A stretch of 64,000 nucleotides of DNA from Mesorhizobium loti (lineage in GTDB: Bacteria; Pseudomonadota; Alphaproteobacteria; Rhizobiales; Rhizobiaceae). Made by a program: the position numbers and the translations under genes. The stretch is from NCBI GenBank assembly GCA_014189435.1, contig CP050293.1:3911001-3975000 (forward strand), read 5' to 3'. The notes beneath the pieces were generated by a model. It was not told the origin of the DNA. It was given only the letters and a program-made list of their open reading frames with translations, and searched no databases. Shown in pieces: positions 42,631 through 45,664 of this stretch (position 1 is its first letter; each line of letters starts with the position of its first letter).

Positions 42631-45009
42631 TCAACCAGCTATCTTCGAGAAATCCGCGACCTGACCGGTCGCCGCGCGGATGCGGGCGAGCAGCGCCAGG
42701 CGGTTGGCGCGAACGGACAAGTCCTCGTCATTTACGAGGACATGCTCAAAGAATGAATCAACCGGTTCACGCAAAACGCTAAGCGCCAGCAGAGCGCCGG
42801 AAAAGTCATCGTTTTGAATCGCTTCGCCGGCTTGCTTCTCAGCCTGATTCACCGCCGCAAACAGCGATTTCTCGGCATTCTCGCGAAACAGCGCCGGCTC
42901 AACGTTTTCGGCGACCGCCGTTTTCTTCTTCTCCTCGGCAGCCAGGATGTTAGCGGCACGCTTGGTGCCGGCAAGCAGGTTTTTGCCATCCTCTGTGTCG
43001 AGGAAGGAGCCGAGCGCCTCGACCCGGCGCACGATCTGCAGCAGGTCGTCGGACTGCGGTGTGATGACGGCATCGATGAGGTCGTGGCGGGCACCCTGGT
43101 CACGGAGGTAGACCTTCAGGCGGTCGTGGAAGAAGGCGACGAGATCGGCGATGAATGGCGAAAGCGATGCTTCCAACTCCATCATACGCTGGCCGTCGAA
43201 GAACTCTCGTTCCTGATCGGCCGAGCCAAAGGTTTGCGAATTTGCGTTGGCCAGCCCACCTTTCAACAATCTGGAGATCAAGCCCGCTTCCGACAACAGC
43301 TGGCTTGCCCCCTTGTACTCGCGGATGCGGGAATCGAGCATCGTGACCACACCACGGCTCTCGGCCCCCTCGCCGAACCGTTCATAGGCGGCGAGCGCCG
43401 AGGCCACCGTCGCCGCAATGGCGACACCCAGGGAAAGCCTGATCCTGTTTTCCAGTATGATCCTCACCACACCCAGCGCCGCTCGACGCAGCGCATAGGG
43501 GTCCTTCGACCCGGTCGGCTTCTCGTCGATGGCCCAGAAGCCGGCCAGCGTGTCGAGCTTGTCGGCGAGCGCCACGGTGATAGAAACCGGATCGCTCGGT
43601 ACGCGGTCGGAAGGGCCTTGCGGCTTGTAGTGTTCTTCCGCCGCAGCGGCGACCGAAGCATGCTCGCCCTGCAGCAATGCATATTTGCGGCCCATTGCGC
43701 CCTGCAGTTCCGGAAACTCGCCAACCACTTCGGTGGTGAGGTCAGCCTTCGCTAACACGGAAGCGCGGCACGCCAGCGCGGGATCGGCGCCCATGATCGG
43801 CGCCAGTTCCTCGGCCAGGTACTTGATCCGCTCCACTCGCTCGCCCTGCGTGCCGAGCTTGGCGTGGAAAGTCACGCCAAGATGGTCGAGCCGGGCCATG
43901 CGCTGATCGAGCGGCTTGCCAAGATCAAGCCCGAACTTTTCCGCCGATGCCTCGAGCTCGCCGAGGTCAGGCAAATCGCCCTGATCGGTGGTCCAGAAAT
44001 AAAGCGCGTCGGACAGGCGAGCGCGCACCACCTTGCCGTTGCCGTGGGCGATCTCCTTGCCGCCGTCCTTCGCCTCGATGTTGGCGGTGAGGATGAAGCG
44101 GTTGGAAAGCGCCTCGGCGACACCCTGCGGCCGCGTCACAAAGCACTTCTGGTTGGCGCGGATGGTCAGCCGGATCACCTCGGCCGGAATGGCCAGGAAA
44201 GCCTCTTCGAACTCGCCCATCAGCACGACCGGCCATTCGACCAGCCCGGACACTTCTTCCAGCAGCCCGTCGTCCTCGACCAGGTCGAGCCCGTTGGCAA
44301 AAGCGAGATTGCGGGCATCGGCAAGGATGATCTCCTTGCGCCGGTCGGCATCGAGCACGACCTTCGCCGCTTCCAGCTTGGACACATAGTCGTCGAAGCG
44401 GCGCACCGTGATGGCATCAGGCGCATGGAAGCGGTGGCCGTAGGTGATGTTGCCGGAGCGGATGCCGTCGATCTCGAAATCGACCACGACAGGCTCCTCG
44501 GTCTCCGGGCCGAAGGTGCACAGGATCGATTGCAGCGGGCGCACCCAGCGCAGCGAGCCTGGCTTGGCCGAGGCCGGCCCCCAGCGCATCGATTTCGGCC
44601 ACGGAAAATTGCGGATGATGCCCGGCACCAGTTCGGCGATGATCTCTTCCGCCGCCCTGCCCGGCTTCGAAATATGGGCGATGTAGAAATCCCCCTTCTT
44701 CGGGTCGGAATGGACATGCGCCTCGGCGATCGATGAAAGCCCGGCCTTGCGCAGGAAACCCTGGACCGCCTGTTCCGGCGCTGATGTCGACGGACCCTTG
44801 ATCTCCTCGCGGATATCCTTCGAGCGTGCGGTCAGGCCCCTGACATCGAGCGTCAAACGACGCGGCGTCCAGTACTCGCGCGCCGCGTCATAGGTCAGCC
44901 CCGCCTCGACCAGACCGTCGGTCAGCATCTTCCTGAGATCGCCCGCCGCCTTGCGCTGCATACGGGCGGGGATTTCCTCGGAGCGAAGTTCGAGCAACAA
45001 ATCCGGCAT
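42631..45009 (-). CDS. glyS: Glycyl-tRNA synthetase beta subunit
   Basis: A 792-residue beta subunit of the bacterial alpha2beta2 enzyme that charges tRNA-Gly together with GlyQ. It begins [15 protein letters not shown] and contains [15 protein letters not shown] and [10 protein letters not shown] (HD-like) and a C-terminal anticodon-binding domain. The ATG at 45009 overlaps the TGA of an upstream leader ORF by one base and has GGAG eight bases before it. That leader repeats the first 15 codons of this gene. Confidence 0.97.
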
Positions 45010-45128
45010 CAGAGTGTCTCCGCCCGCATGCCATTTTCCTGTTTGCGCGTCCTCACGCCTCCGGCGCTGCGGTCGCGCGGCTGGGCAGGAATCTCTTCCG
45101 AGCGGAGTTCTAGAAGCAGGTCAGGCAT
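45009..45128 (-). CDS. 39-codon leader ORF repeating the first 15 codons of glyS
   Basis: Starting at ATG 45128, the first 15 residues are identical to the start of GlyS ([15 protein letters not shown]), yet 11 of the 15 codons use a different synonym. The frame then continues [15 protein letters not shown] and stops at a TGA that overlaps the glyS ATG. GGGGAG lies seven bases before its ATG. It may be a translated leader that couples into glyS, or a remnant of a transferred glyS copy. The unit is offset by 119 bases, not a multiple of three, so no fusion protein forms. Confidence 0.6.
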
Positions 45129-45132
45129 AGCT

Positions 45133-45195
45133 AAGCTCCCCACCCTCCCCTTGATGGGGAGGGTCGGCGCGTAGCGCCGGGGTGGGGTGGCGGCC
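45133..45195. repeat. Palindromic repeat (type C), left flank of the DUF559 gene
   Basis: Starts CCACCCTCCCCTTGATGGGG and continues GAGGGTCGGCGCGTAGCGCC, with internal hairpins. An inverted relative lies at 45614-45664 on the other side of the DUF559 gene. Confidence 0.75.
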
Positions 45196-45197
45196 TC

Positions 45198-45599
45198 TCA
45201 GCCGCCGATACCTTCGGCACCATCACGCAAACGCAGGTGTGATTTCTGTTCTTCCACCGCCGCATAGATCGTATCGAGCACGGAATCCAGTTCGTTTTTG
45301 ATTTCATGGTTCCAGAAGCGGACGACGCGATAACCCTGGCTCTCGAACCATTTTGTTCGACGCTCGTCATGGCGTTGCTGGTCATCGAAGCTGTGATGGG
45401 CACCGTCTACCTCGATGATCAGCTTCAGGCGGTGCGAGATGAAATCGGGGAAGTAGATCCCGACCGACGCCTGCCTGCGGAAATGAGTGCCTTCGACTGG
45501 AATGCGCCACAGATGCCGCCACAGGATGCGTTCCTCGTCGGTCATTGCCGCACGGAGCCGTTGCGCGGATTGCAACTTGAACCGGTCAAGCTTCGGCAT
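45198..45599 (-). CDS. DUF559 domain-containing protein (Vsr-like endonuclease fold)
   Basis: A 133-residue protein of the DUF559 family: QRLRAAMTDEERILWRHLW, HFRRQASVGIYFPDFISH and LIIEVDGAHHSFDDQQRHDE, then FESQGYRVVRFWNHEI. The Asp/Glu pattern (FPDF..IEVDG) matches the nuclease-like core related to Vsr and to restriction enzymes. The family is frequent in rhizobia and has no established role. The start at 45599 precedes MPKLDRF. The gene sits between glyQ and glyS and is flanked by inverted type C repeats, which suggests a transferred cassette. Confidence 0.85.
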   Translation of the reverse strand: MPKLDRFKLQSAQRLRAAMTDEERILWRHLWRIPVEGTHFRRQASVGIYFPDFISHRLKLIIEVDGAHHSFDDQQRHDERRTKWFESQGYRVVRFWNHEIKNELDSVLDTIYAAVEEQKSHLRLRDGAEGIGG

Positions 45600-45613
45600 A
45601 GAAAACCGCGCTA

Positions 45614-45664
45614 GCACCCCCACCCGCCGCTTCGCGGCGACCTCCCCCATCGAGGGGGAGGTAA
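45614..45664. repeat. Palindromic repeat (type C), right flank of the DUF559 gene
   Basis: Contains CACCCCCACCCGCCGCTTCG and ACCTCCCCCATCGAGGGGGA. Its reverse complement aligns with the left copy at 45133-45195, so the DUF559 gene lies between inverted copies. Confidence 0.75.

Follow-up and report, generated by a model that had tools for sequence, protein, structure and literature searches.

A candidate gene-sparing hairpin insertion at glyS of Mesorhizobium loti and at other gene ends in the order

The doubled start of glyS

The stretch analysed here, hereafter the window, comprises 64,000 nucleotides of Mesorhizobium loti (GCA_014189435.1, contig CP050293.1, 3,911,001-3,975,000 of the forward strand) and raises a simple question: why is glyS preceded by a second copy of its own start? 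On the minus strand, the gene follows a 119-nt unit composed of a 45-nt copy of codons 1-15 and a 74-nt tail (Table 1). As reported in a preliminary description of this DNA, residues 1-15 are identical in both copies and 11 of the 15 codons differ, all of them synonymously, and the leader ORF opened by the distal copy closes with a TGA sharing bases with the glyS ATG, as TGATG (minus strand). A unit with the identical junction after codon 15 is present at 16 of 80 other glyS loci (the best 80 among the matches listed; 14 carriers were recognized first, and L032 and L035 were then added), and given this recurrence the doubled start of the window is more than chance. Codons 16-39 of the leader ORF encode a structured hairpin, and the same hairpin is found at other genes, including two further ones in the M. 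loti genome. In Mesorhizobium loci the 5' part of glyS is well conserved; beyond about codon 400 close relatives align in fragments, with large indels.

The reading that we prefer, and hold to be fairly probable, is that of a small hairpin insertion that duplicates a gene end and thereby leaves the gene unharmed, the glyS unit being one member of a family. Such an insertion is probably non-autonomous and mobile. The core would arrive by an insertion duplicating the gene end, so that the gene would stay whole, and since the insert is too short to encode an enzyme, the mover would act from elsewhere; recombination between the copies could later remove the core, leaving hybrid or footprint alleles.

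Table 1. Features of the glyS locus, in window positions.
Feature	Positions	Strand	Remarks
glyS, glycyl-tRNA synthetase beta subunit	42631..45009	-	PF02092, E 5.7e-172
Proximal copy, codons 1-15 of glyS as read now	44965..45009	-	Third-position pattern goes with the core being present rather than with the glyS body
Leader ORF, 39 codons	45009..45128	-	ATG at 45128; TGA at 45011-45009 overlaps the glyS ATG (45009)
GGAG, putative ribosome binding site for the proximal start	45018..45021	-	By reading the sequence
Hairpin core matched by covariance models	45023..45083	-	R1 81.6 bits (the window belongs to the R1 training set); R2 62.1 bits
P3, pseudoknot helix	45023..45073	-	45073-45068 with 45028-45023; 5 of 6 pairs form in the window
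P1, conserved internal loop sequences on both sides	45045..45078	-	45078-45074 with 45049-45045; covariation
P2, hairpin	45055..45067	-	45067-45063 with 45059-45055; covariation
Distal copy, codons 1-15 of the leader ORF, native-like glyS start	45084..45128	-	Same as the glyS start of unit-free L007
DUF559 gene adjoining the 119-nt unit, judged outside the system	45198..45599	-	PF04480, E 1.4e-34

A structured core between copies of gene ends

In 17 glyS tails (the window and 16 others), 8 of 16 pairs are changed on both sides and 94% of the cells are paired; helices P1 and P2 covary, none of 500 shuffles reached as high a covariation and slid controls were far lower. A wider alignment, fitted to the structure and drawn from many genes, comprises 71 distinct sequences, and in it covariation extends to each of the 10 pairs of P1 and P2 (0 of 500 shuffles). 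Helix P3 is paired in 91% of the cells of the 17 tails, with no pair changed on both sides, and ends two bases 5' of the GGAG. With a length of at least 6 bp it was found in 17 of 30 glyS members and in none of 81 members of the six other target groups measured, so that a universal pseudoknot was ruled out; what the targets have in common is, on this evidence, a bulged hairpin, the pseudoknot being a feature of glyS. The single-sequence fold of the window tail is not unusually stable (z -0.61), which counts against the insertion reading, and the strand preference as judged by wobble pairs is modest (42 G-T versus 25 A-C cells). When the window stretch and 20 loci were compared with Rfam release 15, no match over the core reached the gathering score of any family, the best being weak (e.g. 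CsrC, with 21.4 bits where 61 are required).

A leader peculiar to glyS was ruled out once the covariance model found the core at other genes. Of 297 genomes of the order, 55 were matched by model R1, applied at a cut-off of E 0.1 with E-values that are rough, and model R2, for which 87 matches from several genes served as input, gave matches in 103 of 146 genomes of the genus, mostly 1 to 5 per genome. In a sample of the class R2 matched 14 of 385 genomes, the window's own among them. Outside the order, 13 of 384 other genomes of the class match at E <=0.01, and only that of G418 (5' end of a tRNA-Met gene, L166/L249) is convincing, the rest being weak or limited to the hairpin. At L167, L169, L170 and L171, all from other orders, an intergenic match covers the hairpin part alone (GCCCGCAG...GCGAGGAC), possibly as a distant relative or by chance. 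The M. loti genome holds three copies, at glyS and at the 3' ends of ilvC and mmsA. All three are found by the model, while the 74-nt tail has no second clear DNA match in its own genome (best other E 0.04), and a genome-wide DNA repeat was accordingly rejected. Plasmids searched by blastn with the 119-nt unit gave no match, and viral contigs gave 0 matches to a strict exact pattern; a looser pattern gave 7 viral-contig matches without a flanking repeat above chance (scores 8-14), which were taken for chance, and a phage origin was discarded.

The core has about 45-60 nt and is flanked on either side by a direct copy of a host gene's end, mostly with about 30-85 nt per copy. A direct repeat of the gene end flanking the insert, the trait of gene-restoring integrative elements, was found at 174 of 202 matches (score of at least 18), as against 4 of 202 in a control with the downstream side reversed, counts in which four loci were fetched twice and every core of an array was included. 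Among the best 30 loci of model R1, 28 have such a repeat across the core with a score of at least 21, the exceptions being L125 and L144. Ten kinds of target were recognized: the 5' ends of glyS, hisF, rnhA, a CoA-transferase gene and tRNA-Met, and the 3' ends of mmsA, ilvC, groEL, a kinase gene and tRNA-Gln. Their names derive from NCBIfam for proteins and from ARAGORN for tRNA-Gln and tRNA-Met, those of mmsA, CoA-transferase and kinase coming from partial proteins that score under the NCBIfam curated cut-off. An automatic motif distributed 140 loci among mmsA 3' (36), glyS 5' (28), ilvC 3' (28), hisF 5' (16), rnhA 5' (6), groEL 3' (2) and tRNA 3' (2), with 22 left without an automatic name. 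Reading of these 22 recovered hisF (L126), mmsA at contig ends (L209, L217), the 5' end of tRNA-Met (L166 and L249, which are one place, and L258), of the CoA-transferase gene (L161) and the 3' end of the histidine kinase gene (L139), in addition to a core-only array (L125) and 12 weak or unnamed places under 13 names (L167, L168/L250, L169-L178). The target sets vary from clade to clade.

At all ten kinds of target the copy's boundary within the gene is in direct contact with the 5' end of the core, and 3' of the core comes the intact gene; the core is sense at gene 5' ends and antisense at gene 3' ends, with 10 of 10 kinds in agreement. The sorting script examined the 3' side of the core only, and the left-over loci, which were also read, included no convincing one with the gene opposite. 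The junctions of the core have no evident common sequence by eye, a point counted against the insertion reading. More than one core is present at 43 of the 140 loci (some of them weak or fetched twice), with up to four in tandem at rnhA loci. At L125/L148 (G041 C10 244670-245040) the core alone forms a head-to-tail array of about 46 nt per unit, without copies of a gene end, and at L122, a groEL 3' end, the duplicated stretch exceeds 200 nt, carries terminator-like hairpins and is far longer than at other targets.

Translation, age and inheritance of the insertion

In all 35 distinct glyS carriers, whose relatedness makes this count and the substitution counts below non-independent, the stop of the distal ORF falls within -3 to +8 nt of the proximal ATG, as TGATG in 29 of them, with units that range from 112 to 134 nt and use different frames. 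In the other two frames, searched from codon 11, a stop falls in this range in 4 of 70 instances. Such a rule for the position of the stop implies translational coupling. The same trait of coupled leaders, a stop overlapping or adjoining the next start, is present in 11 of 14 resolved hisF leaders (17 tried) and in none of 5 resolved rnhA leaders (6 tried), the latter counting against the insertion reading. Over codons 2-15 the glyS copies differ by 194 synonymous and 7 nonsynonymous changes, where 39 and 146 would be expected at random; looser alignments running past the start codon gave synonymous to nonsynonymous counts of 173:17 for glyS, 47:23 for hisF, 63:42 for mmsA, 29:27 for ilvC and 6:5 for rnhA. 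Judged by the stop positions and the 194:7 ratio, the leader seems to be translated and to feed into glyS by coupling, one of the two options offered in the preliminary description. The simplest account is that the insertions surviving at translated starts are those whose displaced start passes ribosomes to the new one. At glyS, ribosomes would begin at the distal ATG, read across the hairpin and terminate at TGATG, then reinitiate at the proximal ATG; the insertion would provide this second start with its GGAG.

The stop-start overlap in 35 of 35 carriers, the 194 synonymous against 7 nonsynonymous differences, and a P3 helix that occurs at glyS only (17/30 versus 0/81) and ends two bases ahead of the GGAG also speak for a glyS unit whose main role is regulatory, a translated short ORF with a pseudoknot that controls glyS and is under selection, the other hairpins sharing its origin and being incidental. 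However, the same core occurs antisense at gene 3' ends and also at tRNA genes, the unit is patchy at glyS itself (16 of the best 80 other loci), and a leader that repeats the N terminus of its own gene is left unexplained by such an account, which we regard as rather unlikely.

The age of the two glyS copies was assessed in 22 Mesorhizobium-type carriers and 13 non-carriers, one of the latter being Aminobacter. In codons 2-8 of the proximal start, third-position differences amount to 0.24 between carriers, 0.65 between carriers and non-carriers and 0.50 between non-carriers, and in codons 9-15 to 0.31, 0.52 and 0.53 for the same three classes; over glyS codons 16-115 the three classes are alike (0.21-0.34). 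The distance to non-carrier starts is 0.44 for the distal and 0.65 for the proximal copy in codons 2-8, and 0.51 and 0.52 in codons 9-15, by which the distal copy is the more native in codons 2-8 only. The glyS start of L007, a locus free of the unit, equals the window leader over 45 nt, which makes the leader copy the native-looking one. The earlier suggestion of a foreign leader has therefore to be turned around, the odd copy being the proximal one. In mmsA codons a signature of carriers was sought and not found, carriers differing only in the stop codon (TAG in 24 of 36, versus 7 of 40 others) and in the bases that follow it.

Within the genus, the two copies of one genome differ by 7.9 codons, versus 8.0 between genomes (19 loci, three arrays excluded), in line with the initial view that no recent local duplication took place there. 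In 13 glyS carriers from outside the genus a genome's own copies differ by 3.4, versus 7.9, and the distal copy is nearest to its own proximal copy in 11 of 13; this near-identity could reflect gene conversion. Mantel correlations with the glyS body within the genus are r 0.51 for the core, 0.70 for the proximal copy and 0.13 (p 0.11) for the distal copy, and the core correlates with the distal copy at r 0.34. The glyS insertion of the genus seems to be old and inherited with the gene body, and the duplication in other genera to be younger or homogenised; constraint acting on the proximal copy may be an alternative to this view.

The nearest neighbour of a core shares its target in a fraction of 0.97 within the genus (0.32 when shuffled) and of 0.70 among 30 cores from outside it (0.28 when shuffled). 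This clustering suggests that jumps are rare within the genus and, together with the tracking of the glyS body by core and proximal copy, that cores are mostly inherited there, which was counted against the insertion reading. Across families, core similarity is 0.622 for the same target and 0.609 for different targets (p 0.047); that the target explains so little, along with the clade-specific target sets, argues for new insertions over longer times. Alleles resembling losses were found at glyS, as a hybrid start in L060, at hisF, where L320 has the 3' tail of the core and lacks the core, and at mmsA, where 3 of 40 non-carriers (L279, L290, L311) have carrier-type sequence past the stop and L290 may keep a decayed core.

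The Mantel correlations, the clustering by target in the genus, the tandem arrays at 43 of 140 loci and the hybrid and footprint alleles could also be accommodated by cores that are old at a few genes, with duplications produced by hairpin-driven rearrangement and gene conversion and an apparent spread due to inheritance, loss and ordinary homologous recombination between strains, without transposition. Yet a single core family at ten unrelated targets, in sets that differ between clades, requires some route to new genes, and a single orientation shared by all ten targets does not follow from such a scheme; we consider this explanation improbable. With respect to the insertion reading, no movement, no circular form and no moving enzyme was seen among the genomes compared, which was also counted against it. 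Y1_Tnp is not enriched in carriers (8 of 55 core-positive versus 33 of 242 other genomes, compared by hand), and membership of the IS200/IS605-REP system with its Y1 transposase was rejected for this reason. In the loci read, no integrase gene lies within the element, the copies of a unit being a few tens to about 100 bases apart.

Known elements and the adjoining DUF559 gene

REP, MITE and Rickettsia palindromic elements are short, structured, non-coding and dispersed, some of them lying within genes. The hairpin insert resembles them in being short, structured, non-coding and dispersed, and differs in its few copies per genome, its long duplications of gene ends and its fixed orientation toward the gene. 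Translational bypass elements are structured inserts within a reading frame that the host tolerates; at the hairpin insert, in contrast, the protein is kept intact by a second start together with overlapping stop and start codons, and a repeated gene end is not among the features for which bypass elements are known. The uORF or attenuator leaders of aminoacyl-tRNA synthetases combine structured RNA with a coupled short ORF before the synthetase gene; unlike in these, the hairpin core is antisense at other genes and the short ORF repeats the N terminus of the gene itself.

Tn5253 in rbgA, as presented in the excerpt of PMC8571831, is an integrative element that restores its target gene, with an attB of 17 to 84 nt. 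As with the hairpin insert, the coding sequence is made whole again by a duplicated gene end, which varies in length and has one of its boundaries at a fixed place within the gene. The hairpin insert, by contrast, has about 60-75 nt, neither integrase nor cargo, and many unrelated targets, with no common core sequence seen at its junctions. Br-REP1 and Br-REP2 of Bradyrhizobium, a genome having about 200 intergenic sites of the first and at least 50 of the second according to the excerpt of PMC5082802, are likewise hairpin repeats of the same order found near gene 3' ends; their consensus differs, and gene-end duplication is absent from their description in that excerpt. In open-licence literature no description of the hairpin insertion was found, and this family of small insertions is apparently undescribed in the order, the Rhizobiales-1 motif, entered without an Rfam number in the portion of PMC2864571 consulted, standing outside the comparison.

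More tentatively, and with somewhat less than even confidence, the family might represent a new class of mobile element: a non-coding hairpin of about 60 nt, inserted in a single direction at defined positions close to gene and tRNA ends, dependent on machinery acting in trans, in which the second copy of the end spares the target and the displaced start becomes a coupled leader. One structured insert would account for recurrent doubled gene starts and ends across a bacterial order, and doubled starts can mislead the annotation of start codons. If the insert is mobile, it is a tiny element landing in genes such as glyS, groEL and those of tRNAs while leaving them intact, and one has to ask by what means a hairpin is inserted along with duplications of 30-85 nt. 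Coupling through a structured insert is open to direct test at glyS and hisF.

The DUF559 gene next to the unit is real and flanked by inverted G+C-rich repeats (about 45139-45196 and 45617-45664, repeats by eye), as first described. Its adjacency to the unit in the window had suggested a nuclease cassette that homed into the glyQ-glyS interval and carried a donor glyS 5' end by co-conversion, an idea with next to no probability left, since tblastn and a motif search of the best 80 other glyS loci found the unit only at 16, DUF559 only at 7, neither at 57 and both, the joint occurrence by which the preliminary description had itself proposed to judge it, at 0, so that the window is the sole locus with both among itself and these 80, and since the distal copy, which lies beside the cassette, is the native-like one.

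DUF559 lies just upstream of glyS at 7 of the best 80 other loci, from several genera (L012, L047, L056, L074, L076, L077 and L080). At those that were read, the G+C-rich repeat ends a few bases 5' of the glyS ATG, and in the window (45139-45664) the repeat provides a GGGGAG seven bases ahead of the leader ATG. The non-carrier L025 has, by reading, an apparent decayed remnant of DUF559 that tblastn had missed.
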